From assembly GCF_014705615.1 (NCBI RefSeq), contig NZ_JACXJA010000019.1:62001-126000 (forward strand): 64,000 nucleotides of DNA, read 5' to 3'. Below the pieces are notes generated by a model. That model did not search any database. It saw nothing but the letters and a program-made list of their open reading frames with translations, and was not told the origin of the DNA. This DNA is from Paenibacillus oceani (lineage in GTDB: Bacteria > Bacillota > Bacilli > Paenibacillales > NBRC-103111). The position numbers were made by a program, and so were the translations under genes. Positions 6,475 to 44,423 of this stretch are shown piece by piece (the first letter of the stretch is position 1; each line of letters begins with the position of its first letter).

Positions 6475-8232
6475 ATGGCGAAATCGAAAGTTATCGTAGT
6501 GGGCGGAGGACTTGCCGGTCTCATGGCTACTGTAAAAGCCGCCGAAGCCGGTGTTCACGTCGACCTATTCTCATTAGTACCCGTTAAACGTTCCCACTCC
6601 GTATGCGCGCAAGGCGGCATTAACGGAGCGGTTAATACGAAGGGCGAAGGCGACTCCCCTTGGGAGCACTTCGACGATACGGTATACGGCGGGGACTTCC
6701 TTGCCAACCAGCCGCCGATCAAAGCGATGTGCGAAGCGGCGCCGGGTATTATTCACCTGATGGACCGGATGGGCGTTATGTTCAACCGGACGCCGGAAGG
6801 TTTGCTCGATTTCCGCCGGTTCGGCGGAACGAAGCATCACCGTACCGCGTTCGCGGGCGCCACGACCGGCCAGCAGCTGCTGTATGCGCTGGACGAGCAA
6901 GTACGTCGCTGGGAAGCGGCGGGTCTCGTTACGAAGTATGAGCATTCGGAGTTTTTGTCTGCCGTCATCGACGAGGAGGGCGTTTGCCGCGGAGTTTGCG
7001 CGCAAAACCTGCGCTCGATGGAAGTGGAGACGTTCCGTGCCGATGCCGTTATTTTGGCTACCGGCGGTCCTGGCATCATTTTCGGCAAAACGACCAACTC
7101 GGTCATCAACACCGGTACGGCTGCCAGTGCGGTTTATCAGCAAGGCGTTACTTACGCGAACGGCGAGTTCATCCAAATTCACCCGACGGCGATTCCGGGA
7201 GACGACAAGCTGCGGCTCATGTCCGAATCGGCGCGCGGAGAAGGCGGACGGATCTGGACGTACAAAGACGGGAAGCCTTGGTACTTCCTCGAAGAAAAAT
7301 ACCCGGCATACGGCAACCTGGTTCCGCGCGATATCGCGACCCGGGAAATTTTCCACGTCTGCGTAGACATGAAGCTCGGCGTCAACGGCGAGAACATGGT
7401 TTATCTCGATCTCTCGCATAAAGATCCGAAGGAGCTGGATGTCAAGCTCGGCGGTATTATCGAGATTTACGAGAAGTTCATGGGCGACGACCCGCGGAAA
7501 ATTCCGATGAAGATTTTCCCTGCGGTTCACTATTCGATGGGCGGCATGTGGGTCGACTACAACCAGATGACGAACATTCCGGGCTTGTTTGCAGCCGGTG
7601 AGTGCGAATACCAGTATCACGGCGCGAACCGTCTGGGCGCCAACTCGCTCCTGTCCGCGATCTTCGGCGGTATGGTAGCCGGACCGAAAGCGATCGAATA
7701 TATCAAAGGCCTGAGCAAGTCTTCCGAAGACGTTTCGAGCGGCGCTTTCGACCGCGAGAAGCAGAAAAACGTCGACAAGTATGAAGGTCTGCTCAAAATG
7801 GACGGAACCGAGAACGCGTATGTGCTGCACAAGGAACTCGGCGAAATCATGATCGACAACATGACGGTCGTCCGCTACAATGACAGACTTGAAGCTACGA
7901 TCAGCAAAATCAAAGAGCTGAAGCAGCGTTACAAGAAAATCAACATGACGGATACGGCCCGCTGGAACAACCAGGGCGTCGCGTTTACCCGCCAGTTGTG
8001 GAATATGTTCGAGCTTGCCGAAGCGATGACGAAGGGCGCCCTGATGCGCGACGAAAGCCGCGGAGCGCACTACAAGCCGGATTTCCCGGATCGCGACGAC
8101 GACAAATTCATGAAGACGACGCTGGCGAAATGGACGCCGGACGGCCCGCAAATTTCGTACGAAGACATCGACGTTTCGCTCATCGCTCCGCGTAAACGCG
8201 ACTATACGACGGACAAGAAGGGTGGTCACTGA
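6475..8232 (+). CDS. sdhA: Succinate dehydrogenase flavoprotein subunit
   Basis: SdhA oxidises succinate to fumarate with covalently bound FAD. The 585 residues start with the dinucleotide-binding VVGGGLAGLMATVKAAEAG. Next comes the flavinylation site SHSVCAQGGINGA, where His41 is the expected FAD attachment residue. The substrate-site region includes HPTAIPG, SESARGEGGR and HYSMGGMWVDYNQMT, and the C-terminal helical domain ends in LIAPRKRDYTTDKK. Length and motif order match B. subtilis-type SdhA. It is the middle gene of sdhCAB; sdhB follows after 2 bases, so translation is probably coupled. No damage is visible. Confidence 0.97.
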   Translation: MAKSKVIVVGGGLAGLMATVKAAEAGVHVDLFSLVPVKRSHSVCAQGGINGAVNTKGEGDSPWEHFDDTVYGGDFLANQPPIKAMCEAAPGIIHLMDRMGVMFNRTPEGLLDFRRFGGTKHHRTAFAGATTGQQLLYALDEQVRRWEAAGLVTKYEHSEFLSAVIDEEGVCRGVCAQNLRSMEVETFRADAVILATGGPGIIFGKTTNSVINTGTAASAVYQQGVTYANGEFIQIHPTAIPGDDKLRLMSESARGEGGRIWTYKDGKPWYFLEEKYPAYGNLVPRDIATREIFHVCVDMKLGVNGENMVYLDLSHKDPKELDVKLGGIIEIYEKFMGDDPRKIPMKIFPAVHYSMGGMWVDYNQMTNIPGLFAAGECEYQYHGANRLGANSLLSAIFGGMVAGPKAIEYIKGLSKSSEDVSSGAFDREKQKNVDKYEGLLKMDGTENAYVLHKELGEIMIDNMTVVRYNDRLEATISKIKELKQRYKKINMTDTARWNNQGVAFTRQLWNMFELAEAMTKGALMRDESRGAHYKPDFPDRDDDKFMKTTLAKWTPDGPQISYEDIDVSLIAPRKRDYTTDKKGGH

Positions 8233-8234
8233 TC

Positions 8235-8987
8235 ATGGCTGAGACGAAGACGATTAGACTGCAAGTCACCCGTCAGGACGGCCCGGATTCGAAGCCGTAT
8301 ACGGAAGAATTCGAAATTCCATACCGTCCGAACATGAACGTCATCAGCGCGCTCATGGAAATTCAGCGGAATCCGAAAAATGCCGGCGGTTCCAAAACGA
8401 CGCCGGTATGCTGGGAGTCCAACTGTCTGGAGGAAGTATGCGGCGCCTGCTCGATGGTCATTAACGGCAAGCCCCGCCAGGCTTGCTCGGCGCTGATCGA
8501 CAAGCTGGAGCAGCCGGTTCGCGTCGCTCCGATGAGCACGTTCCCGGTCGTGCGCGACCTCGTCATCGACCGCCAGCGGATGTTTAATGCGCTCAAGCGC
8601 GTAAAAGCGTGGATTCCGATCGACGGCACGTACGATCTCGGACCAGGTCCGCGGATGGCGGAATCGAAGCGCCAATGGGCTTACGAGCTGTCCAAATGTA
8701 TGACCTGCGGCGTCTGCCTCGAAGCGTGCCCGAACGTCAACGACCGTTCTGACTTTATCGGACCGGCGCCGTTGTCCCAGGTACGCCTGTTCAACGCTCA
8801 TCCGACAGGAGAGATGAACAAGGAAGAACGTCTCGACACGCTGATGGAATCCGGCGGCATCGAAGGCTGCGGCAACTCGCAAAACTGCGTCCGCTCCTGC
8901 CCGAAAGGCATCCCGCTTACGACTTCGATCGCGGCGCTTAACGGTGACACGACGAAACAGCTGTTCAAAAAATGGCTCGGCATGTAA
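8235..8987 (+). CDS. sdhB: Succinate dehydrogenase iron-sulfur subunit
   Basis: SdhB passes electrons from FAD to the heme anchor through three Fe-S clusters. CWESNCLEEVCGACSMVING with a later Cys (PRQAC) forms the N-terminal [2Fe-2S] site. CMTCGVCLEACPNV and CGNSQNCVRSCPKGIP form the C-terminal [4Fe-4S] and [3Fe-4S] sites. The length of 250 residues is normal for the family. ATG 8235 follows GGTGGTCACTGATC at the end of sdhA. The gene is last in the operon and is followed by a strong terminator. Confidence 0.97.
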   Translation: MAETKTIRLQVTRQDGPDSKPYTEEFEIPYRPNMNVISALMEIQRNPKNAGGSKTTPVCWESNCLEEVCGACSMVINGKPRQACSALIDKLEQPVRVAPMSTFPVVRDLVIDRQRMFNALKRVKAWIPIDGTYDLGPGPRMAESKRQWAYELSKCMTCGVCLEACPNVNDRSDFIGPAPLSQVRLFNAHPTGEMNKEERLDTLMESGGIEGCGNSQNCVRSCPKGIPLTTSIAALNGDTTKQLFKKWLGM

Positions 8988-9034
8988 GACGGATGCTCCG
9001 TCTGGCCCGGCCTTCATAGATTGGCATGGCAGAG

Positions 9035-9076
9035 AACCTCTGATCACCGGCAGTTGCGGTGGTTGGAGGTTTTTTT
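9035..9076 (+). terminator. Terminator of sdhCAB
   Basis: A 15-bp stem with three G-T pairs (9035-9049 with 9057-9071: AACCTC...CACCG and CGGTG...GAGGTT) is followed by seven T. Confidence 0.85.
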
Positions 9077-9164
9077 GCTTATCGTGCTGGTATGTGTCGT
9101 GCGACGCAGGCCGTTTATCGCGGCATCTCAAATGTCCCCCGATTTGGGGCAGGAGGGAACCGTA

Positions 9165-9400
9165 TAAGAGCGGTTTGTAACCTCAATTTTGCCCGAAAAC
9201 TTGCTTGGGCACGAATTAAGAGCGGTTTGGAGCCGCTAATATCCTCGAAAAGGAAGGGTGCAGACGCTGCCCGTGGCTGAAATAAGCGGTACAAACCGCT
9301 TCTATTCATCTCTGTCCTCCTCATATGCCGAATATAGAGGGCGCCAGAGACTCTTATTGTACTGAAGCCCGCACGTATGAGCGGCGCGATCAACGAAGTA
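9165..9400. repeat. Dispersed intergenic repeat, copy 1
   Basis: This non-coding block shares ordered motifs with 28851-29075 and 57074-57227: AAGAGCGGTTTG...CCGCT, then GGCTGAAATAAG.GGT.CAAA, then CCGCTTCTATTCATCTCT, with CTCTTATTG and GCGGCG.GATCAACG near the end. The AGCGGTTTG and CAAACCGCT elements are inverted relative to one another, so the unit can fold. No ORF or transposase is present. The remaining gap to the next gene (to 9613) has A/T-rich DNA including the 12-bp palindrome ATTATATATAAT at 9556-9567, a possible promoter or operator site. Confidence 0.7.
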
Positions 9401-9613
9401 AAAGTGAAGGGGCTTGCAGGAGCGATGCTTTCACAGAAAACCATCCTCTTGCGGTTTTTTTCATTCAATTGACAGGTCACGCGGAGGCTGTGAAGCCTGC
9501 CGGATATCGACTCCCGCCCGATGTCCGGATGGTCTCAAAAAAGAATTGCGTTGTCATTATATATAATGTATTGTGTATATTATATGGAACATAGCCTTCG
9601 GGAGGGGTTTCCT

Positions 9614-11743
9614 TTGAGCGAGAAACAGTACGAGTTCCGCAGAAGACTGGAAGAGGTACATAAGCCCAACCGGCGCGATCCGGAAGCGTTGCCCGGTGAG
9701 GACGAGCTGGAGATTGACGGGAGCTGGCAGATCGTCATCCCTTCGTTCGCAAGTCCGCAGTTGCTGCATGTGGCGAAAGATTTGCAGGATTATTTTTTTA
9801 CCAGCATGGGCGTATCGGTATTGCTTCGGCGCGTGGAGCGGATCGAAGAGGTTGCGTCCACCGGCAAGCAAGTGATCGTCCTGGCCGCGAAGGCGGAGCT
9901 TCCCGGAGTCGGTCATGCGCTGACGAAGACTCGGAGTTATCGTATCGTAGCGGAACGCGAGCGGATCGTCGTCTGCGGCAACGAGGACCGGGGAACCGGT
10001 CAAGGAAGCTACTTTCTGGAAGATGTGATGAATCTGCGCGAGGCGCCGTTCGTCCGTCTCCAGGATCTGACCCGCGAGCCGTTGTTTTCCCCGCGGATGA
10101 TCCATTCGGGATGGGGACTCGATCATTTCCCGGATGCTCACCTGAACGCGATGGCGCATGCCGGCATCGACGCGATCCTCGTGTTCGTGAAAGGGATCGA
10201 CGAGACGCCGTTCGGCTATCAGGACTTCAATCATACGATCGATCGTGCGGAACTGTTTGGACTCGACGTGTATATGTACAGCTATGTGGCCAGCCGCAAA
10301 CACCCGGAGGACGAGGACGCGCTCGACTATTACGAAAGCACCTACGGCCGGATACTGGAGAAATATTCCCGGTTCAAAGGCATTATTTTCGTCGGCGAAT
10401 CGTGCGAGTTTCCGAGCAAGGACCCGAACACGACCGGCATGCTCCGGCTGGAATGGCCGAAAGACAAGCCGCGGACGAAGCCGAGCCCGGGCTGGTGGCC
10501 GTGTTACGACTATCCGCAATGGCTGGAGATGATCAAGAAAGTTACCCGCAAGCACAATCCCGAGCTTGACATCGTGTTCTGGACGTACAATTGGGGCTAC
10601 GTCGGCGAGGAGCAGCGGTTGAAGCTGATCGAATCGCTGCCGACGGATATTACGCTGATGGCTACGTTTGAGATGTTCGAAGTGTATGAAAAAGATGGAG
10701 TGACGTTCCGCTGTGCGGATTATACGGCTTCCTTCGAAGGGCCGGGCAAATATTTTGCCAGCGAAGCCAAAGCGGCGCATGACCGGGGAATCCGTCTGTA
10801 TACGATGGCGAATACCGGAGGGCTTACCTGGGATATCGGAGTTATTCCGTATGAGCCGATCCCGTACCAATGGGCGCGCCGACATGCGGGCTTGCTGCGG
10901 TCGAGACGGGACTGGGGACTAGCGGGACTTATGGAGTCGCATCATTTCGGCTGGTGGCCTTCTTTCGTCAGCGATCTGACCAAATGGGCGTACTGGAGCC
11001 CGTCCCCTTTGCAGGAGGAGACGTTTGCGGCCGTGGCCCGGCGCGACTTCAGCGAACAGGCGGTGCCGCTTGTGCTGGAAGCCTGGAGGCACTGGAGCGA
11101 GGGAATTCGGCATATTATTCCGAGCAATTACGACCAGTACGGTCCGTTTCGGATCGGTCCGTCCTATCCGCTTGTTTTTCGCGAAAAGGTAGAAATTCCG
11201 GCGGCCTGGTACGCCCATTTCGGCAATCAGATTATCGCTCCGAATTATGGGCAGGGAAACGAGCTCGAGTCCTATAAACGGGTCGATACGGAGATCCGAA
11301 GCTTGCAGCAGATGGCCTCGCTGTGGGAGCAAGGCAACGCGAGCATCGAACGGGCGCTGGAGCAAACTCCGCCGCGGAAGCGGGAGGAAGGCATGCTGCT
11401 GCTGAACTTGAACCGGTTTATTCACCGCACCGTCTTGACCGGCATTCACACGAAGGTGTGGTGGAAGCTGCGGCATCAGCTGCTGAACAACACGGATCAG
11501 GCGCAAACGGCGGTGTTGCTGGAACAGCTGGAGCAAGTAGCGCTGCAGGAGATTGCCAACGCGGAGGCGACGATCCCGCTCGTGGAAGCCGATTCGCGTC
11601 TCGGCTGGGAGCCGAGCATGGAGTATATGACCGATCCGGAACATCTGCGCTGGAAGATCGCCCAGGTGCGGAGGGTGCTTGAGCATGAACTGCCTAATTA
11701 TCGTGAGGGGTTAGGGAACAGTAGTATGTTCGCTAGTTCTTGA
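9614..11743 (+). CDS. Cytoplasmic glycoside-hydrolase-like protein (GH20/GH67-type N-terminal fold plus TIM-barrel-like region)
   Basis: A 709-residue protein without signal peptide. TTG 9614 is chosen because GGGAGGGG sits 7 nt upstream; the frame stays open to 9521. Residues about 20-145 (DGSWQIVIPS, LLHVAKDLQDYFFTSMGVSV, VVCGNEDRGTGQGSYFLEDV) look like the alpha/beta domain that precedes the barrel in GH20, GH67 and GH84 enzymes. The following 450 residues (FSPRMIHSGWGLDHFPDAHL, FKGIIFVGESCEFPS, IVFWTYNWGYVGEEQ, GLMESHHFGWWPS) have the Trp/Tyr and Asp/Glu-rich look of a sugar-cleaving barrel. I cannot name a family or catalytic acid with certainty. The gene stands alone with its own terminator, so an intracellular oligosaccharide is the likely substrate. 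Confidence 0.55.
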   Translation: MSEKQYEFRRRLEEVHKPNRRDPEALPGEDELEIDGSWQIVIPSFASPQLLHVAKDLQDYFFTSMGVSVLLRRVERIEEVASTGKQVIVLAAKAELPGVGHALTKTRSYRIVAERERIVVCGNEDRGTGQGSYFLEDVMNLREAPFVRLQDLTREPLFSPRMIHSGWGLDHFPDAHLNAMAHAGIDAILVFVKGIDETPFGYQDFNHTIDRAELFGLDVYMYSYVASRKHPEDEDALDYYESTYGRILEKYSRFKGIIFVGESCEFPSKDPNTTGMLRLEWPKDKPRTKPSPGWWPCYDYPQWLEMIKKVTRKHNPELDIVFWTYNWGYVGEEQRLKLIESLPTDITLMATFEMFEVYEKDGVTFRCADYTASFEGPGKYFASEAKAAHDRGIRLYTMANTGGLTWDIGVIPYEPIPYQWARRHAGLLRSRRDWGLAGLMESHHFGWWPSFVSDLTKWAYWSPSPLQEETFAAVARRDFSEQAVPLVLEAWRHWSEGIRHIIPSNYDQYGPFRIGPSYPLVFREKVEIPAAWYAHFGNQIIAPNYGQGNELESYKRVDTEIRSLQQMASLWEQGNASIERALEQTPPRKREEGMLLLNLNRFIHRTVLTGIHTKVWWKLRHQLLNNTDQAQTAVLLEQLEQVALQEIANAEATIPLVEADSRLGWEPSMEYMTDPEHLRWKIAQVRRVLEHELPNYREGLGNSSMFASS

Positions 11744-29361: not shown

Positions 29362-30792
29362 TTACTTGGCCGGCGGAGGAGTACCTCCTGCCCAAGCTTG
29401 ATCGAGCAGCTTTTGGCCTTCGGTCTGAATCGTGTAGATCGCTTCCTCGATCGTTTTGCGGCCGTTCACCGCTTCATCGATTTCGCGGATGTACAACAGC
29501 TGGAACGGAGTGCTGAACACCGGATAAAACGTATCCGGCACGGTGATGGTAAGATCCAGCTCCTCTTTCTTTCGCTTCAGCATATAAAAGGGCTCCAGGC
29601 TTTGCCCGTCTTTCGTCGTGGCGAAGGCGGTCCGGCTGGAGAACACGTCGTCCATTTTCATCTTGACCTTAGCCGCTTCCTCGCTGTTGAAATATTGGAC
29701 GATACTCCATGCCGTATCCGGGTTATCCGCGTTAGCCGGTATGACGAAAATCGTATCAACGTCAAAGTTGTTCGTGTACTCCGGATTCGCCGGATCGACG
29801 GGAACCGTAACGACGTCCCAATTAAAATCTTGGGTGCCCCACTGTTTCATCCGAAACAGCTGTTCGACACCGCTAACCGTCATCGCCGCTTTGCCCCGGC
29901 TGAACAGATCCATCTCTTTCGTCTCGTCCGGGCCGTAACGAACCGGTTTACCGTCCTTATAGTAGTAATACAGATTTTTGCTGCGAAAGCCTTCGATAAT
30001 ATGCTTAAACGATTTCTTCCATATGTCGGATTCGAATGTCAAACGTTTCATGTCGGGGCTTATATAAGAGGCGTTCTCTGTAGCCGCCAACGTTTGAATG
30101 AAATCGAAAGTCGTCCAATATTTAAGATGAATGCCGTAGATCCGTTTTTCCGGATCGGGATCGACCGGAAAACGCCGGGACAACTCCATCGTCTCCTCCC
30201 ACGACATCTGGTTTTTCGGATACGGGACGCCATACTTGTCGAACAGATCTTTGTTGTAATACAGCCCCGAGCTTGTAAGCTCGGGCGCCAGCCCGAACAG
30301 CTTGCCTTCGTCGTTCTCCTTCAGGCGCGCGATCGCGGCGGGGACGAACTGGCTCAGATCGAAGCCGCTATTGCGGACGAACGGTTCGAGATCGAGCAGC
30401 ATTCCTTTGTTTGCCCAGCGGAAATAAAACGATGGGTGCGTAATGACCAGATCCGGCTTTTGTTCGCGTACTAATTTTTCAAATTCATCAAAGTAATTAT
30501 TTCCCGTTTTGTGCAAATCTTCGGTTGAAATAATCTCTACCTCTACGTCGGGAAATTTGAAGGCGAAGTAGTCTCCATAGGTCGAATAAAACGATTCCTC
30601 GCTGCCGAACGGTATCCGGACTACTTTCCGGGTCTGCTCGTCGGCAGGTTTTGCCGTGCAGCCGGCCAGCAGCAGAGAGACGGCCAGCACCGAGGCCAGC
30701 GCTCCGCGAGCCAACTGCCGGCCCGGCGCCGGATGGCGGCTTTTCTTTCCAACGTTATTCCACTTCATCGGTTTTCTTGCCTCCATCCCCAT
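29362..30792 (-). CDS. Lipoprotein solute-binding protein, family 1, last gene of sigma operon
   Basis: A 476-residue extracellular binding protein held to the membrane by lipid: the lipobox is LAVSLLLAGC. The mature part has the family-1 SBP pattern, with LYYNKDLFDKYGVPYPK then NQMSWEETMELSRRFP in the hinge lobe, and DVDTIFVIPANADNPDTAWS near the C-terminus. It is paralogous to the two other SBPs of this locus. ATG 30792 shares one base with the upstream TGA stop, so translation is coupled; a GTG at 30795 and an ATG 27 bases further in are alternative starts. No permease or ATPase gene is nearby, which suggests a sensing rather than a transport role. Confidence 0.85.
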   Translation of the reverse strand: MGMEARKPMKWNNVGKKSRHPAPGRQLARGALASVLAVSLLLAGCTAKPADEQTRKVVRIPFGSEESFYSTYGDYFAFKFPDVEVEIISTEDLHKTGNNYFDEFEKLVREQKPDLVITHPSFYFRWANKGMLLDLEPFVRNSGFDLSQFVPAAIARLKENDEGKLFGLAPELTSSGLYYNKDLFDKYGVPYPKNQMSWEETMELSRRFPVDPDPEKRIYGIHLKYWTTFDFIQTLAATENASYISPDMKRLTFESDIWKKSFKHIIEGFRSKNLYYYYKDGKPVRYGPDETKEMDLFSRGKAAMTVSGVEQLFRMKQWGTQDFNWDVVTVPVDPANPEYTNNFDVDTIFVIPANADNPDTAWSIVQYFNSEEAAKVKMKMDDVFSSRTAFATTKDGQSLEPFYMLKRKKEELDLTITVPDTFYPVFSTPFQLLYIREIDEAVNGRKTIEEAIYTIQTEGQKLLDQAWAGGTPPPAK

Positions 30793-32303
30793 CACGGTTT
30801 TTTCTCCACTTTCGCCTGCTCGATCGCCGTTTGTCCGCGCTGCTGTATGGCGCCGATCGCGTCGTCCAGACTTTTGGTCCCGGCTGCCGCGGATTTCATT
30901 TCCTCGTTAACGATCGCCGACAGCGAGGTGTACAAAGGCCGATCCATAATGGCCAGGCTGCTCGCCTGATCATCGGGCCTTAGCATCGTGAAAGCTTCCA
31001 GTCTGTACGTAATCGGAGTCCGCGATTCGAACTTGCGGGAGTACAACCCGAAATTGCCGGTATAGGAGGAGGAAACCTTCCTTGTCATCGCTTCGCTGTG
31101 GATCGACTTGATCAGCTCCCAGCCGTCCCTTGCATTTTCTGAATTTGCAGGAATTGCATAAATTTCGTCAATCCGAAACGTGGACGAGACATTCGGTTTC
31201 GCCGGGTCGACCGGCTCCGTCACAATATCCCAGGCGAAATCGGCGAGATTATACCGCTGCTTGGCCTGGATCAGGTCGTTTGCCGTACTGTTCGTTGAAA
31301 CCATCATCGCCGCGTTGCCGGTCAGGAACGGGTTGCGTTTGTAAAAATCGGCTCCGGATATGCTGCCCGTCAAAGGCTTCGATTCATAGAGCCAGCCTTT
31401 CTTCACGCCGTCGGCGACGAACTGGAAGATGGAGCGCCAGGCGTCCGTATTCGCCGTCATCTTGCTGACGTCGGCATCGGTCAGGCCGATTCCCTTCGTA
31501 CGTCCTATACTCTCGGCCGTGCCGTAAGGGGACGCCGAATACGGGATCAATCCGTATACGCGATCTTCTCCCTGCCCGTTTGCCGGAAACCTTTGGGCCA
31601 GAGCGAGTACATCCTCCCAGCTCATCTGGTCAGTCGGATACGGGACGCCGTATTTATCGAATAGCGACTTGTTGTAATAAAGAGCCTGGGTCGAGAAGTT
31701 GGGAGCCATTCCGTATAACTTGCCCCCGCCGGAATCCCGGATTGTTTCGACTACACTTTCCTGGAAAACGCCGAGATCGTATTTTTCCTTTTGGATGAAC
31801 GGGTCGAGCGGCAGCAGCAGTCCTTTGTCCGCTAACTTCTTATAGACCTCCATCGGGACGTACACGACATCCGGTTTTTCTTTCTCGATCAATTCCTCGA
31901 ACTGGACCGCCCGGTCCTTCTGCGGGTCGTAAGGCGGGGAGTTGATGGCGTCCACGTCCATATTCGGATATTGGATGATGAAGGCATTGCCATAACGGCT
32001 CATAAAGGACATGCCATCGACCCATTGTACTTTGATCGACCTTTCCGTCTTGACGTCGAACTGGGGCGTCTTGACCTCTTGCTTGAACAAGCCCAGTATC
32101 GGCTCCCGCTGGGTAAAAAGGATGGCAGAAGCAAGCAGCAGCGCGGCGGCGGCAACCCACACTTTACCGCGGGATCGTTTCGTTGTCGCTTCCATGGCGA
32201 TTCGTTCCTCCACGCTATTCATTAATTTGGGCGGTACGCCCTTCGGATTTAAAGGGAAATGTTTAAGCTCTTTTTCCCAATCTGGGAATCGTTTCGGTCT
32301 CAC
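30792..32303 (-). CDS. Transmembrane-tethered solute-binding protein in anti-sigma position
   Basis: A 503-residue protein that is not a lipoprotein. Residues 1-46 are a charged cytoplasmic tail (FPDWEKELKHFPLNPKG, PPKLMNSVEERIAMEATTK), residues about 47-64 one transmembrane helix (VWVAAAALLLASAILF), and the rest an extracellular family-1 solute-binding domain (LYYNKSLFDKYGVPYPTDQM, IDEIYAIPANSENARDGWEL). It starts 23 bp after the ECF sigma stop; GTG 32303 follows AAGGAGG at 7 nt. Short cytoplasmic tail, single helix and external domain directly after an ECF gene is the classical anti-sigma arrangement. The inference is that ligand binding outside frees the sigma factor. The tail shows no anti-sigma zinc motif (HxxxCxxC), so direct binding is untested. 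Confidence 0.8.
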   Translation of the reverse strand: MRPKRFPDWEKELKHFPLNPKGVPPKLMNSVEERIAMEATTKRSRGKVWVAAAALLLASAILFTQREPILGLFKQEVKTPQFDVKTERSIKVQWVDGMSFMSRYGNAFIIQYPNMDVDAINSPPYDPQKDRAVQFEELIEKEKPDVVYVPMEVYKKLADKGLLLPLDPFIQKEKYDLGVFQESVVETIRDSGGGKLYGMAPNFSTQALYYNKSLFDKYGVPYPTDQMSWEDVLALAQRFPANGQGEDRVYGLIPYSASPYGTAESIGRTKGIGLTDADVSKMTANTDAWRSIFQFVADGVKKGWLYESKPLTGSISGADFYKRNPFLTGNAAMMVSTNSTANDLIQAKQRYNLADFAWDIVTEPVDPAKPNVSSTFRIDEIYAIPANSENARDGWELIKSIHSEAMTRKVSSSYTGNFGLYSRKFESRTPITYRLEAFTMLRPDDQASSLAIMDRPLYTSLSAIVNEEMKSAAAGTKSLDDAIGAIQQRGQTAIEQAKVEKKP

Positions 32304-32326: not shown

Positions 32327-32875
32327 TTAGTATGAATCGGACAACTGTTCCTTCAGCAATAACGGCACCTTCGCCCGCGCCCGGTGAAGCCGGGACTTGA
32401 CGGTGCCTTGGGAGATATTCAGCATGGAGGCGATCTCGGGTACGGTCAACTGGTGGTGGGCGTATAAGAGCAGCACTTCCCGCAGCTTCTCAGGCAGGTC
32501 CATAACCGCCTTCCAGACATCGCCGCTGACCATCCGGCTCAGCACTTCCTTTTCCGTGGAGGAAGCCGTTTCCGACCTGCGGATCGTAGCCATCAGAAGC
32601 ACCCGGCGGGCCCATGCCGATTTGCGGTGATCTTTGGCGACGTTTCGCGTAATCGCGAGCAGCCATGTCTTGACGCTCGATTCCCCGCGGAACGAGAACA
32701 TGCTGCGGTACACCTTGATAAAGACGTCCTGGAAGATGTCGTCCGCCTGATCGAAACGGCTCGTCAGGAAAAACGCGTAGTTCCACACATCATTGCCGTA
32801 ACGTTCCATCAAGTCGCGCAGAATGACGTTTTTGTCCGTACTGTCGGACAGCGTGCTCAAATAGTCCAAACCCAC
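32327..32875 (-). CDS. ECF-type RNA polymerase sigma factor
   Basis: A 182-residue sigma-70-family regulator. Region 2 is at residues 20-90 (YGNDVWNYAFFLTSRFDQAD, DIFQDVFIKVYRSMFSF, SSVKTWLLAITRNVAKDHRK). Region 4 is at residues 125-175 (LPEKLREVLLLYAHHQLTVP, EIASMLNISQGTVKSRLHRA). GTG 32875 is preferred, with GAGGTGA 9 nt upstream; the open frame reaches 32974, but that stretch holds the putative promoter. It heads an operon with the tethered SBP and the lipoprotein SBP. A candidate self-activated promoter lies directly upstream. Specific ECF group not assigned. Confidence 0.92.
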   Translation of the reverse strand: MGLDYLSTLSDSTDKNVILRDLMERYGNDVWNYAFFLTSRFDQADDIFQDVFIKVYRSMFSFRGESSVKTWLLAITRNVAKDHRKSAWARRVLLMATIRRSETASSTEKEVLSRMVSGDVWKAVMDLPEKLREVLLLYAHHQLTVPEIASMLNISQGTVKSRLHRARAKVPLLLKEQLSDSY

Positions 32876-32897
32876 TTTTCGTTCACCTCGATTATTG

Positions 32898-32923
32898 GAC
32901 GACGCGCTGAATAAAAGGGTTCC
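32898..32923 (-). promoter_or_regulatory. Putative ECF-dependent autoregulatory promoter
   Basis: On the minus strand, GGAACC (32923-32918), 16 nt, CGTC (32901-32898). This is the -35 GAAC / -10 CGT layout and spacing of ECF promoters such as those of sigma-W. It ends about 23 bp before the sigma start codon. No comparable sigma-A promoter is apparent between the upstream terminator and the gene. Confidence 0.6.
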
Positions 32924-33045: not shown

Positions 33046-34335
33046 TCAGTTGCCCTTGCCTTTCTCCGTTACGATGTGCTGCCGGATCTGCTCTTCTGCG
33101 TCGCGAAGCGCCGTATTGACATCCTTGACATTTTTGACGGCATTCGTATATTCGGCGGTCAGGAGGCTGTAAGCTTTCGAATAATAATTCGAGTTAGGCG
33201 GTGCGGCGGCGGATTTGCTCTTGAATACGCCTTCGATATGTTTGCCTTTCAGCTCGGGCAGGTCTTGGCCGAACGCTTGCCTGAATTTCGGATCTTTCAT
33301 GACCGACAGTTTGGCCGATTTTCTGGACATGACGGTCTGCACTTCCTCGGAGAACAACACCTCGAGCACCCGCATCTGATCATCCCGGTTTTTGCTCATT
33401 GCCATCGGAATCATGCAATGCAGGTCGTACATGCCGTATGTATCCGGTTTCTCCTTGTAGCTGGGGAATTGGGCCACGTCCCAGTTCAGATCCGGGGTTT
33501 GTCTAAGCCGCAGAAACAGATTGATCGTCGGGATCATCGCAACGGTTTTATCTTTCAGGAACCGGTCGATCGGAGAGCCGCCGATAAACTCGTTGCCTGG
33601 GATGGAATAGATTTGTTTGCCGATGTCAAACGCCCTTTTGTACGGGTCGCTGTTCACCAGCACTTTATCGGTTTTCTGATCGATGATGTTGAGAGACAGG
33701 GGGAAAAGGAGGCGGTTGAGGTCGTCAACTTCGATGCCGCGGTATTGAATGTCATTGTCCTTGCGGGTTACTTTCTTGGCAAGCTCGATAGCGTCTTCCC
33801 ATAGCATGCCGTCCTTCGGGTAGGGGACGCCGAATTTATCGAATATGTCTTTATTGTAGTAGAGGGCGTTTAAGTTGTTGGCGTAAGGGAGGGCGTACAG
33901 TTCGCCTTTCTCCGAGTTCGCAATGATCGTATCCAGAGCGCCCTGGTCGAACCGGCCGAGATCGAAATTGTACTGCTTGGCGAGCGGAAGCAAATCGAGA
34001 TACACGCCTAAATCCTTATAAGCGGTCAGGCGGCCGTGGTAAGTAACGAGGAAGTCGATCGATTCGCCCTTGGAGAGCAGCTCCGGCAAGTCTTCCGTCG
34101 TTTTGTCCATCTCCACGGTCAGGTGGGGATACTTCTTCTTGACCGGTTCGGCAATCAGCTCGTTGAAATCCTGATCCGTAAAATATCCCCCCAGCTGATG
34201 GACCCGGATTTTGACGGGATCGAGCGGCTTTTCCGCCGGTTTGACCGAGACGTCAGTTGGTTGTTGACTGTTAGAGCACCCAGCGAAAACGATTACAAAG
34301 GCGGAAAGAAAAAATACGAACCTTTTTCTTCTCAC
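33046..34335 (-). CDS. Lipoprotein solute-binding protein, family 1
   Basis: A 429-residue lipoprotein with lipobox FVIVFAGC and a family-1 SBP body (ALYYNKDIFDKFGVPYPKDG, PLSLNIIDQKTDKVLVNSD, YDLHCMIPMAMSKNRDDQMR). GTG 34335 is chosen because GGAGGT lies 8 nt upstream; the longer open frame to 34506 lacks a signal peptide. It is paralogous to the two SBPs of the adjacent sigma operon, with the shared signature YYNKD.FDK.GVPYP, but is transcribed separately and ends at its own terminator. No ABC permease is adjacent. Confidence 0.87.
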   Translation of the reverse strand: MRRKRFVFFLSAFVIVFAGCSNSQQPTDVSVKPAEKPLDPVKIRVHQLGGYFTDQDFNELIAEPVKKKYPHLTVEMDKTTEDLPELLSKGESIDFLVTYHGRLTAYKDLGVYLDLLPLAKQYNFDLGRFDQGALDTIIANSEKGELYALPYANNLNALYYNKDIFDKFGVPYPKDGMLWEDAIELAKKVTRKDNDIQYRGIEVDDLNRLLFPLSLNIIDQKTDKVLVNSDPYKRAFDIGKQIYSIPGNEFIGGSPIDRFLKDKTVAMIPTINLFLRLRQTPDLNWDVAQFPSYKEKPDTYGMYDLHCMIPMAMSKNRDDQMRVLEVLFSEEVQTVMSRKSAKLSVMKDPKFRQAFGQDLPELKGKHIEGVFKSKSAAAPPNSNYYSKAYSLLTAEYTNAVKNVKDVNTALRDAEEQIRQHIVTEKGKGN

Positions 34336-34812: not shown

Positions 34813-35163
34813 TTGATTAAACGCGAGAAATCCCGGGTAACGATTAAGCTGCTCGTTATGTTCGCCCTTGTATGGTCGTTTCTTATGCCGACCGCCGAGC
34901 TTGTTGTTACTCCCGTATCCAAAACCATTCCCGCCGTATCGGCATCCGCAACGATTCATTCGCCTTTAAGCTCTCCTGCGCATATGCTGACCAAGCTGCG
35001 CATGTTTTTGCCGGCTCTCGTCGTGACATTGTTTGTCGGCTGCATCGTATCTCTTGAAAATCGTATCCGCAATCGGCTGGACCGTTTTGCGCCCCCCATA
35101 CCGCTTCTTCGCAAGCAGTTGCTTTTGCGTCCCCTGAAATTCACATCCCATTATGTAATTTGA
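34813..35163 (+). CDS. Small membrane protein of unknown family, paralog of 39690-40034
   Basis: A 116-residue protein with two helices (about 10-30 and 62-80) and a basic C-terminal tail. It shares with the 114-residue protein at 39690 an N-terminal block, WSFLMPTAELVVTPVS then IPAVS, and a C-terminal block, QLLLRPLKFTSHYV; the middle is divergent. Two such blocks in otherwise variable proteins point to a real family. TTG 34813 follows GGAAAGGAGG. It lies upstream of the khtT/khtU/yitT genes, where Bacillus has the small gene khtS, but I see no basis to call it khtS. Function unknown. Confidence 0.75.
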   Translation: MIKREKSRVTIKLLVMFALVWSFLMPTAELVVTPVSKTIPAVSASATIHSPLSSPAHMLTKLRMFLPALVVTLFVGCIVSLENRIRNRLDRFAPPIPLLRKQLLLRPLKFTSHYVI

Positions 35164-39689: not shown

Positions 39690-40034
39690 ATGACTTTGGA
39701 CAGAGGCGCGCGGATTTTTGTTAAGCTGATTTCCGCATTCCTTTTAATCTGGTCGTTTCTCATGCCCACGATCGAAACGGTCGTCACTCCTGTCTCCAGC
39801 GCGATCCCCGCCGTATCTTCGGGAGCTCCAGGCTGCACCAGCGCAGCCGTTCTCGGACAAAACTACGATAAGCCGGAATCAGACGTCCCCTATGCGGCCT
39901 TTTCCGTAACGCTGCTCGCATTAGGATTGGCCCTACCGGTCCGGATGCCCCACTTTTCCTTTATAATCCCTCTCCTGATGAAGAGTCTGCTGCTTCGTCC
40001 GATCAAATTCACATCCAATTACGTATCCGTCTAG
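39690..40034 (+). CDS. Small membrane protein of unknown family, paralog of 34813-35163
   Basis: A 114-residue protein with helices around residues 10-28 and 68-88. It shares with the 116-residue protein at 34813 the N-terminal WSFLMPTIETVVTPVS and IPAVSS, and the C-terminal SLLLRPIKFTSNYV. Hydrophobicity and size agree too, while the central part differs. ATG 39690 follows AAAGGGGGAGAA. The next gene downstream is a yitT paralog, 137 bp away; the other copy also lies upstream of a yitT, with khtTU in between. No known domain was recognised. Confidence 0.75.
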   Translation: MTLDRGARIFVKLISAFLLIWSFLMPTIETVVTPVSSAIPAVSSGAPGCTSAAVLGQNYDKPESDVPYAAFSVTLLALGLALPVRMPHFSFIIPLLMKSLLLRPIKFTSNYVSV

Positions 40035-41130: not shown

Positions 41131-41174
41131 ACATCCTGAACCGATTAATGAGCGGTCGGGATGTTTGTTTTTTA
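41131..41174 (+). terminator. Terminator of the second yitT gene
   Basis: ACATCCTGAACCG (41131-41143) pairs with CGGTCGGGATGT (41153-41164), with one bulged base, followed by TTGTTTTTT. Confidence 0.8.
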
Positions 41175-41279
41175 CAGGCGCTGACCGCTCCGCATCCGGC
41201 AAACCTCAGCTTTTGGAGGGAAATGAAGGATTTTGTCGAATTAGTTTTCATAACTAAGAGGTTGCGAGGAGCCGATCCA

Positions 41280-44200
41280 TTGCTCAGAAGAATTGTACTT
41301 GTGTGCTTTGTCGCATTGTTGGCCAGTTCGTTAATACCGTTATCCATCCTAATGAATCGTGACGACCAGCCGGGGGAGCTGAGGGTTCGCAGCGGTATCA
41401 TGGACCTCTCCGGTTGGGATTACCAGCGTAATGAGCGAATCAGGCTGGACGGCGAATGGGAGTTTTATTGGAATCGATTGCTGACCCCGGAGGAATTCCG
41501 GCGGGCGGGAGCGGACACACCGTCGCTTCCCGATCTAATCAAGGTGCCCTCCATATGGAACGGCAAAACGGTCAACGGAGAACAGCTACCCGCTCACGGA
41601 TACGCGACGTACCGGATGGTGCTGAAAAACGTGCCGTTCGACGGGGGAGTCGCGTTGAAGAAGACGAACATCCGGTTTTCGAGCGACGTCTATGCGAACG
41701 GGCACAAGCTGTTCGAGGACGGCAATCCCTCCGACGCGGCGGCAGACTACAGAGCCGGCAACGTCCCGCAGATCGGCTTTTTCTCCGCCCGGAAAGGGAG
41801 CGATATCGAGATCGTCGTTCACGTGGCTAATTTCGATTACGCCAATTCGGGCATTCCGGCTTCCCTTTATTTCGGCGAGCAGGCCGCGATGCTGGCGACC
41901 CAGCAGAAGAGCAAGGCGCACGAGCTGGGGACGTTTGCGATCCTTGCTACGCTTGCGTTCATTTTCGCGATTTGCTTCGTAACGGCGGCCTGGTACCGGA
42001 GCCAAGACTACTCGCTGCTGCTGTACGCTTTGCTTTGCCTGTTTTATGCGATATACAACGGCTTGGTCGGGGAACGGGTTCTCCTCATGTATGCTCCGGA
42101 CTTGCCGTTTGAGCTTATGTTCAAGATCAAAGACTTTTGCTCGCTGGCCTGCTTCATCGTATTGGCTGCCTTATTTTATCGGTTAAAGCGGAATATCATC
42201 TCGCTTACGTTCGCCCGGTTGTTCATCCTTGTGCTTGGCGTTTATACGGCGCTGGTGGTCGTACTGCCGATCCCTGTTTATTCGAAGGTCGAACCGTTTA
42301 TTATTTTAGTATATGAATCGTTGACGATCTGGCTCGTACTGAGGACGGCCGTCCTGTATGTCCGAAGCGGCAAGGGCGACCGCTTGAAGTCTTTGCTGCT
42401 CTTTTCGGCCATCCTGTGCGCGCTGCTGTATTCGGTCGACATGATCCTGTTTTCGTTTTCCTTGAAGGAGCATGCATGGCTGGGGCAGTTTTATATCGTC
42501 TGGTTCAATCTGATGATGCTCGTTCTGGTTGTGCTCCGCTTCTTCGAAGCGTACCATACGATCGACGGGATGAGAAGCCGGCTTCTCGAGCTGGACAAGA
42601 TCAAGGACGACTTCCTGTCCAATACGTCCCACGAGCTGAAAACGCCGCTAAGCGCCATCGTGAGCATAACCGATACGCTTCTCCGGGGGGTGGAAGGACC
42701 GGTAACCGCCAAGCAGGCGCGCCATCTGGCCATCGTATACGAAAGCGGCAAACGTTTGTCTCATCTGGTCAACGAATTGCTCGATTATTCAAAAATGAAA
42801 CATGGAGACATCTCGCTTCATCGGAGCGGTGTCGATCTGAAGGCGGTCGTCGATTCGGTCGTTCAGATTCATGCGTTCCTGCTGGAAGGAAAAGAAATCG
42901 AGATCGTGAACGACGTATCCGGGGATTTGCCCGTCGTTTATGCGGACAGCAACCGTTTGATTCAGATTCTGCATAACCTGATCGGCAACGCAGTCAAATT
43001 CACCGACACGGGCCGGGTGCGAATCAGCGCCAAAGCGGGCGGAGATCAGGTCGAGGTACTCGTGGAGGATACGGGGATCGGCATCGAGGCGTCCATGCGC
43101 GAGCGCATCTTTCAACCGTTCGAGCAGGCGGACAGCTCGGAGACGAAAGCTTACGGCGGTACGGGACTCGGACTGAGCATTACGAAAAAGTTGGTGGAGC
43201 TGCAAGGGGGAGCGATCCGGGTTGAATCGAGCCCGGGACAAGGGTCGGCGTTTTCGTTTACGATTCCGGTGTCGCCGGAGCCGGCTTCGGGCGACAGCCG
43301 GGAATGGGAAGGGAACCGGCCGTACGCGCAGACGTCTCTAATGCCGGGAGAGTACCCGGTCTACATCGCGGGGGAACAAGAAGAGCGCATTCTCGTCGTG
43401 GACGACGATCACGCCAATCTGCAGTCGATGATCAATTTGCTGCGGCTGGAGGGGTATTCCGTCATCGCGGTTCATCGCGGCCGGCTGGCGCTGGACGAGC
43501 TGTCCCGTGCCGCGGACATTGCGCTCGTCGTACTCGATATGATGATGCCCGATATGTCCGGGTACGAGGTGCTGAACCAAATCCGGGAACGGTACTCCGC
43601 ATTCGAGATGCCGGTTCTGATGCTAACGGCCAAAAACCGGGCGGCCGAGACGAAACGGTCGATGGACAGCGGAGCGAATGATTTTGTCGGGAAGCCGTAT
43701 GAACCGGAGGAGCTTATGGCGCGCGTCCGGAGCTTGACCCGGCTGAAGGCATCCGTGAAGACAGCCAAGGAGGCGGAGATTGCGTTTTTGCGTTCCCAGA
43801 TCAAGCCTCATTTTTTGTACAACGCGCTGAATTCCATCGCTACGCTGTGTATGGTCGATCCCCGGAAGGCGGAGGAGCTGACGCTGCAGCTTTCGCAATA
43901 TTTAAGGGGCAGCTTCGATTTTAAACAATTGGAGTCGGTTACGACGCTGGACCGGGAAATGGAGCTGGTGAAGGCGTATATCCATATCGAGCGGGCGCGC
44001 TTCGGCGCCAGACTGCAAGTGGAATACGACGTGGACGAGTTCCCGGCGGCTATGCGGATGCCGCCTCTGCTCCTGCAGCCGCTTGTGGAGAACGCGATCC
44101 GGCACGGTGTCATGTCGAGATCGTCGGGAGGGACCGTGCGCCTCTCCGTCAAGAAGGAAGGGAATGCAGCAGTCCGCTGCACCGTGGAGGACAACGGACG

Positions 44201-44423
44201 CGGAATGAGCGAACAAACGCTGGAGGCCGTGCAAAGCATGGATACGGACAAGAGGGGAGTTGGGCTGTGGAATATCGACCGCCGCCTCAGGCTGATGTAT
44301 GGAGAGGGCATACGGATCGAAAGCGCGGAGGAGAGCGGGACGAAGGTTTCCTTCGTTATTCCGGTGCAGCCGAACGGACGAAAGGAGGAGATCAGATATG
44401 CTGCGGGCGATGATCGTGGATGA
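41280..44423 (+). CDS. Hybrid sensor histidine kinase: 7TMR-DISM, HisKA, HATPase, REC, LytS-type kinase (second copy)
   Basis: Paralog of the kinase at 11949 with identical domain order. The external beta-sandwich has LDGEWEFYWNRLLTPEEF and HGYATYRMVLKN, and seven helices follow. HisKA has SHELKTP (His451), and its ATPase domain has LIGNAVKFTDTG, DTGIGIE and GGTGLGLSI. The receiver has Asp753 in VLDMMMPDMSG. The second kinase starts QIKPHFLYNAL (His844) and ends QPLVENAIRHG and DNGRGM. TTG 41280 is chosen: GAGGAG lies 8 nt upstream, and the start gives an immediate signal anchor. ATG 41223 has a site only 3 nt away, and the open frame back to 41148 crosses a terminator. The gene overlaps the response-regulator gene by 26 bases. 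Confidence 0.9.
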   Translation: MLRRIVLVCFVALLASSLIPLSILMNRDDQPGELRVRSGIMDLSGWDYQRNERIRLDGEWEFYWNRLLTPEEFRRAGADTPSLPDLIKVPSIWNGKTVNGEQLPAHGYATYRMVLKNVPFDGGVALKKTNIRFSSDVYANGHKLFEDGNPSDAAADYRAGNVPQIGFFSARKGSDIEIVVHVANFDYANSGIPASLYFGEQAAMLATQQKSKAHELGTFAILATLAFIFAICFVTAAWYRSQDYSLLLYALLCLFYAIYNGLVGERVLLMYAPDLPFELMFKIKDFCSLACFIVLAALFYRLKRNIISLTFARLFILVLGVYTALVVVLPIPVYSKVEPFIILVYESLTIWLVLRTAVLYVRSGKGDRLKSLLLFSAILCALLYSVDMILFSFSLKEHAWLGQFYIVWFNLMMLVLVVLRFFEAYHTIDGMRSRLLELDKIKDDFLSNTSHELKTPLSAIVSITDTLLRGVEGPVTAKQARHLAIVYESGKRLSHLVNELLDYSKMKHGDISLHRSGVDLKAVVDSVVQIHAFLLEGKEIEIVNDVSGDLPVVYADSNRLIQILHNLIGNAVKFTDTGRVRISAKAGGDQVEVLVEDTGIGIEASMRERIFQPFEQADSSETKAYGGTGLGLSITKKLVELQGGAIRVESSPGQGSAFSFTIPVSPEPASGDSREWEGNRPYAQTSLMPGEYPVYIAGEQEERILVVDDDHANLQSMINLLRLEGYSVIAVHRGRLALDELSRAADIALVVLDMMMPDMSGYEVLNQIRERYSAFEMPVLMLTAKNRAAETKRSMDSGANDFVGKPYEPEELMARVRSLTRLKASVKTAKEAEIAFLRSQIKPHFLYNALNSIATLCMVDPRKAEELTLQLSQYLRGSFDFKQLESVTTLDREMELVKAYIHIERARFGARLQVEYDVDEFPAAMRMPPLLLQPLVENAIRHGVMSRSSGGTVRLSVKKEGNAAVRCTVEDNGRGMSEQTLEAVQSMDTDKRGVGLWNIDRRLRLMYGEGIRIESAEESGTKVSFVIPVQPNGRKEEIRYAAGDDRG

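Follow-up and report, generated by a model that had tools for sequence, protein, structure and literature searches.

Organization of the locus

The window, by which is meant the whole stretch of 64,000 nucleotides of Paenibacillus oceani DNA that was analysed, contains a reverse-strand operon in which one conserved ECF-type promoter is followed by a sigma factor gene, a gene for a single-pass transmembrane solute-binding protein (TM-SBP) and, as is usual in related cassettes, a gene for a free SBP lipoprotein. The features assigned were as follows.

32895..32923 (genome C11:94895-94923), (-) strand: predicted ECF-type operon promoter, GGAACC-N16-CGTCCAA; the same element precedes the sigma gene in 24/24 SBP-type cassettes examined
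32327..32875, (-) strand: ECF sigma factor gene, 182 aa, GTG start at 32875 preceded by an AGGTGA-like ribosome site; assigned by Pfam, conservation and promoter position
30792..32303, (-) strand: TM-SBP gene encoding a putative anti-sigma sensor, GTG start, 503 aa
32169..32303, (-) strand: cytoplasmic tail, residues 1-45, predicted sigma-binding (anti-sigma) module; assigned by hydropathy and by a tail profile common to 65 proteins, each encoded immediately after an ECF gene
32112..32168, (-) strand: transmembrane helix, residues 46-64, N-in/C-out; assigned by hydropathy and the positive-inside rule, alike in 27/27 SBP-type relatives
30804..32054, (-) strand: extracytoplasmic family 1 SBP domain, approximately residues 84-500; assigned by Pfam SBP_bac_1/8 and the nearest solved chains
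29362..30795, (-) strand: partner lipoprotein SBP, 477 aa; Pfam SBP_bac_1 2.5e-22, lipobox LLAGC, clade kept in the cassette
33046..34335, (-) strand: upstream lipoprotein SBP, probable GTG start at 34335 (TTG 34506 according to the ORF tool); Pfam SBP_bac_1 2.2e-10

The sigma factor was matched by the Pfam families Sigma70_r2 (9.1e-16) and r4_2 (1.4e-15). An ORF of 215 aa was rejected as too long; because the conserved promoter sits within this longer frame, the conserved GTG at 32875 was taken as the most likely start. The sigma gene stops at 32327 and the TM-SBP gene starts at 32303, leaving the gap of 23 bp that the earlier note on this DNA had reported, and the TM-SBP and partner SBP genes overlap by 4 bp (GTGA). 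The upstream SBP is close by and outside the predicted operon; no copy of the promoter was found before it, and a homologue lies upstream of the P. ginsengarvi cassette too.

Neighbouring genes were assigned by Pfam to a heparinase II/III-like protein, a calcineurin-like phosphoesterase, a TrkA-C protein and a Na/H exchanger, and no ABC importer permease was found among the window neighbours scanned in this way. The permease EAA motif was found in 0/16 neighbourhoods, a count made by regular expression on a simple ORF list rather than by domain search and including one neighbourhood that is not of SBP type. Elsewhere in the window, 34813-35163 and 39690-40034 (both + strand) encode paralogous small membrane-type proteins, 44% identical, which had no Pfam match and share the C-terminal end LLRP(L/I)KFTS.YV, and 41148-44423 (+) encodes a hybrid protein of 1091 aa with a receiver domain between two histidine-kinase modules.

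Architecture and topology of TM-SBP

The earlier note had described a charged inside tail of 46 residues and a single helix anchoring a family 1 SBP domain outside the cell. The tail was upheld, at a length of 45 residues, the helix starting at residue 46, and hydropathy, charge and the SBP_bac_1 match agree on the remainder. Among 19-residue windows, hydropathy is highest in the one beginning at residue 46 (mean 1.84), whose inner flank has a net charge of +4 and outer flank a net charge of 0, and no second helix was detected by hydropathy (best later window 0.90). No Cys occurs before the helix or within it and a lipobox is absent, in agreement with the earlier view that this is not a standard lipoprotein SBP.

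Pfam matched the protein to SBP_bac_1 (4.8e-18, residues 141-399) and SBP_bac_8 (8.6e-17); no Pfam family other than SBP was found on the ectodomain, so that an RsiV-type ectodomain is absent. The SBP core motifs are kept. The nearest solved chains are sugar-binding SBPs, for example 1eu8 (7.5e-30), and a carbohydrate is therefore a likely ligand. AlphaFold modelling of TM-SBP from 7 alignment rows was of low confidence (mean pLDDT 46.4, tail 33-46). An amphipathic helix after the transmembrane segment, as in RsiV, was weakly suggested (mean moment 1.61 vs 1.27, sd 0.36).

The same topology was predicted, by hydropathy and the positive-inside rule, in 27/27 SBP-type relatives, each with one helix starting at residue 40-54 and a more positive inner side; mean hydropathy of the helix was above 1.6 in 23 and above 1.2 in all 27. 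A lipobox-like match was seen in 1/27 of these proteins, and a Pfam SBP domain was found in each of the 25 that were scanned.

The tail is linked to ECF sigma factor genes

When the whole protein was used as a query, the tail was present at 7 of the 30 best-match loci (L009-L014 and L027), each with an ECF gene upstream; no ECF gene was seen upstream at the remaining 23, which are without the tail. A profile of the tail only gave matches in 56/104 genomes of the family and 76/296 of the order. Among the matches fetched, at least 65 distinct tail proteins were recovered, 27 with an SBP ectodomain and 38 with another; a weak tail locus (L110) that was not recovered by a second profile is outside the 65. 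Immediately upstream of each of the 65, in the same orientation, lay an ECF gene, with -23 to 163 nt between the sigma stop and the start of the tail profile, and Pfam Sigma70_r2 and r4_2 were found in every one of these upstream sigma factors, which are thus not of SigI type. Untailed SBP ORFs with enough upstream sequence (~700 nt inspected) had an ECF gene upstream in 0/41 cases; outside this set, at L175, an SBP gene does follow an ECF gene and a separate anti-sigma-like gene. The linkage of tail-SBP genes to ECF genes anticipated earlier was in this way borne out, with sigma factors confirmed by Pfam. Sigma region 2 was matched 47 times in the 8 Mb of the own genome, and chance ECF neighbours should therefore be rare.

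A wider tail profile matched 51/299 genomes of the class, and an ECF gene lay upstream at 29 of the 30 loci read, the window's own included, with L164 giving no clear call; sigma calls at these loci were made with a home-made profile and not with Pfam. The wider motif is roughly WEK.L...P....GF...L...(I/V).ER. The FPLNPKG-like tails that had been proposed as conserved are a feature of the near genus only, and beyond it the wider motif holds.

Ectodomains on the 29 non-SBP proteins scanned from the order included DUF4850 (8 proteins) and DUF4871 (3 proteins), while those on 10 proteins scanned from the wider profile included a signal-peptidase-like domain, SecD P1 domains and YcdB repeats. As non-SBP ectodomains carry the same tail, its conservation tracks the sigma factor and not the SBP. 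Judged from the sequences, the tail is a module that accompanies sigma factors whatever domain is outside.

Several of these loci are of separate note. At L147, 1000-1725 (-), the gene that immediately follows the ECF gene encodes the tail and helix joined to an ectodomain resembling signal peptidase (S26), in which a catalytic serine motif of the usual kind could not be made out by eye. L154, 886-1719 (-), also located behind an ECF gene, encodes a putative anti-sigma factor with a SecD P1 ectodomain, which may sense protein export. The own genome has, on C7 (L176, 1091-2611, (-)), a tail protein of 506 aa behind an ECF gene with an ectodomain that appears SH3-like by eye, and, outside the window (L175, 1029-3742; C11:148500-154500), a second ECF operon that is an unfused counterpart: behind the ECF gene, one gene encodes an anti-sigma-like protein of 265 aa with a single helix and another a lipoprotein SBP.

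Evidence on a proposed anti-sigma role

The suggestion of the earlier note, that TM-SBP is an anti-sigma factor and sensor in one, is supported by the ECF linkage and by the architecture, and the plainest reading of these is that the tail would do the anti-sigma binding. The designation as a putative anti-sigma factor accordingly draws on genetics and architecture. No Pfam anti-sigma model matched the tail in the window protein or in the SBP-type and non-SBP relatives scanned. The model NF052375 ('anti-sigma factor') was found in 4/29 non-SBP relatives, scoring well short of its cut-off (21 vs 100 bits), and not on the window protein; no curated anti-sigma model reaches cut-off on the tail. 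A search of the tail profile against the PDB gave chance-like matches only. AlphaFold modelling of the sigma factor with the tail (10 rows) was of low confidence (mean pLDDT 54.0, pTM 0.38), and tail pLDDT with the sigma factor (31-46) was no better than without it (33-46). Within the SBP type, tail and sigma distances were correlated (r=0.88, 351 pairs), a value from which relatedness is not removed. An M50 protease gene is present in the own genome (3.8e-65).

A conserved promoter and the predicted regulon

The element GGAAC-N15..18-CGTC[CT]A was located at most 130 nt upstream of the sigma gene in 24/24 SBP-type cassettes with a placeable sigma start (3/27 were not placeable), compared with 0.002 expected from shuffles. 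Of the 38 non-SBP cassettes 14 were examined, and these had the strict form in 0/14 and a looser GAAC...CGTC in 12/14. The strict form GGGAACCT-N14..15-CGTCCAA occurred exactly once in 20/21 other genomes and was absent from G117; the reversed control gave one match in total across the same 21 genomes. Each of the 20 strict sites was followed by a sigma ORF and then a tail-SBP ORF. Because there is one strict promoter per genome, at the cassette, the own operon, SBP lipoprotein included, is the best-predicted output.

A relaxed pattern gave one site in the own genome, that of the cassette. In the 27 genomes searched with it a few extra sites were found overall; G001 had three sites and G002 two, while G003-G005, of which G005 is from a neighbouring genus code, had none. 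The promoter picture is less clean in the window's own genus than in the other genomes. An exact promoter search of five genomes gave 8 sites vs 3 for the reversed control, while a search of the window's own genus allowing two mismatches gave no excess (14 sites vs 18). At the site on G002:C123 the next same-strand gene listed is more than 1 kb away. P. ginsengarvi has a second perfect promoter site before an orphan partner SBP, the frame of which opens with the apparent last residues of a TM-SBP; the orphan is therefore probably a deletion derivative. No target beyond the own operon was firmly predicted by the strict, relaxed or two-mismatch searches.

Inheritance of the SBP-type cassette

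At least 27 SBP-type tail proteins were found, in 7 genus codes and 3 family codes. Their sigma factors form one clade of 27 against 37 others (support 99/95) in a final tree from which row L102, badly cut in an earlier quick tree, was left out, and the 26 TM-SBP ectodomains of sufficient length for tree building likewise group in one clade (support 100/98). The two clades together indicate that the cassette has been inherited as a unit.

An SBP gene lies right after TM-SBP in 13 of the 16 SBP-type cassettes viewed, and is absent from this position in L111, L116 and L117. The 11 SBPs designated operon partners fall on one supported branch, which also includes an SBP from a short contig and the P. 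ginsengarvi orphan. In the L120 cassette, 7115-11215 (+), three closely related lipoprotein SBP genes are in tandem after TM-SBP; these fall outside the partner clade, and they had been labelled FREE in the tree although they lie behind TM-SBP.

Comparison with known systems

In Bacillus subtilis, RsiV is the lysozyme-sensing membrane anti-sigma factor of the ECF sigma factor sigmaV, which is activated by site-1 and site-2 proteolysis (PMC6066255). In the RsiV family the first cut is made by signal peptidase and the second by RasP. TM-SBP resembles RsiV as a putative membrane anti-sigma factor of an ECF sigma factor with an extracellular sensor part, and differs in having a family 1 SBP as its ectodomain and, usually, a second SBP in the operon. 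The RsgI-sigmaI systems of Clostridium thermocellum have an outside carbohydrate sensor, one helix and an inside inhibitory domain, encoded in a sigma-anti-sigma operon, and SigI is described as being without sequence homology to sigma4 (PMC10575876). A putative outside sensor of carbohydrate type, one helix, a predicted inside inhibitory part and an operon with the sigma gene are shared with RsgI. In contrast to SigI/RsgI, Sigma70_r4_2 is found in 65/65 sigma factors here, and while the RsgI sensors are carbohydrate-binding modules plus an autoproteolytic periplasmic domain, the window protein matches only SBP families.

Class I anti-sigma domains (ASDI) regulate ECF sigma factors and are often joined to other domains; they average ~100 aa, about half have a Zn motif, and domains below 50 aa were set aside as possible class II (PMC7406223). 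The TM-SBP tail, at ~45 aa, without Cys and with no Pfam anti-sigma match, is unlike ASDI and nearer in size to class II domains such as CnrY. As in the case of Tt-TolB, the anti-sigma factor of Tt-RpoE1, the putative anti-sigma gene is downstream of its ECF gene; Tt-TolB is named after another exported protein and not an SBP. With SBP_bac_1 proteins of ABC importers TM-SBP has the ectodomain family and core motifs in common, but it is without a lipobox, has a retained helix and an inside tail, and no permease genes were found next to it.

No anti-sigma factor with an SBP ectodomain was found in open-access titles and the opening parts of abstracts, a body of literature in which the 2021 ECF reclassification is not covered. 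The membrane-bound kind of ECF anti-sigma factor is already known; what appears to be new is the proposed use of an SBP as sensor, its pairing with a lipoprotein SBP and a circuit with a single promoter.

A proposed mechanism and its alternatives

Taken as a whole, the locus is likely to be a self-contained, autoregulated ECF sigma/anti-sigma switch with an SBP as its sensor. The tail would very probably bind the sigma factor and keep it from RNA polymerase. With somewhat less assurance, the SBP ectodomain is probably the sensor, its occupancy changing the membrane-proximal part, and what it binds would be either a small solute, with a carbohydrate the likeliest, or a ligand-loaded partner SBP. 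By analogy with RsiV and RsgI, the chances are about even that release occurs by regulated intramembrane proteolysis, with a site-1 cut outside followed by a RasP-type M50 site-2 protease. The freed sigma factor would transcribe chiefly its own operon, so that sigma factor, sensor and SBP lipoprotein rise together.

It is highly improbable that TM-SBP is a mere membrane-anchored SBP of an ABC importer, lying by chance in a sigma operon with its tail as an anchor only. TM-SBP does match SBP_bac_1 well and its gene adjoins that of a second SBP lipoprotein, but the same tail is found on non-SBP ectodomains behind ECF genes, neither the Pfam-scanned window neighbours nor the 16 neighbourhoods searched by regular expression yielded a permease, and the 41 untailed SBPs are without an ECF gene close upstream.

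Two other explanations retain the anti-sigma factor or the circuit and assign them a different purpose. The SBP domain may be a docking surface by which another protein is sensed, for example a cell-wall factor or the lipoprotein SBP of the same operon, instead of a solute binder. This appears unlikely: partner SBPs are co-inherited with TM-SBP and usually encoded next to it, and known ectodomains of such a kind can bind proteins, as RsiV binds lysozyme (PMC6066255), but three of the 16 cassettes have no SBP after TM-SBP, and the SBP core motifs are retained. We regard it as rather doubtful that the locus is a private positive-feedback module, the sole function of which is to express the SBP lipoprotein for a shared permease elsewhere. 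The single strict promoter in 20/21 genomes, always at the cassette, and the orphan promoter with its partner SBP in P. ginsengarvi are in keeping with such a module; against this, the strict pattern would miss weaker sigma targets, the relaxed pattern gave a few extra sites, and the same three cassettes have no SBP gene for it to express at that position.

The autoregulated switch with an SBP sensor may, more tentatively, be extended to a two-receptor switch. A transport-type SBP would have been captured as a ligand-gated anti-sigma ectodomain, and the free lipoprotein SBP, binding the same ligand, would present it to the anchored SBP or compete with it. The circuit would be self-closed, each genome having a single strict promoter, and of long standing in the bacterial order, and the tail would be a plug-in anti-sigma module repeatedly given exported domains (SBP, signal-peptidase-like, SecD P1, YcdB repeats) as sensors.

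If the proposed switch is correct, it would add a new type of sensor to a familiar class of bacterial switches, and would be a compact converter of solute to transcription in one protein. SBPs are the main solute catchers in such large-genome bacteria, which have many per genome, mostly with the ligand unknown. An SBP wired to a sigma factor would be a read-out: the ligand could be found with a reporter placed behind a single promoter that is short and well defined. The fusing of exported domains to one short anti-sigma tail would be a route to new sensors.
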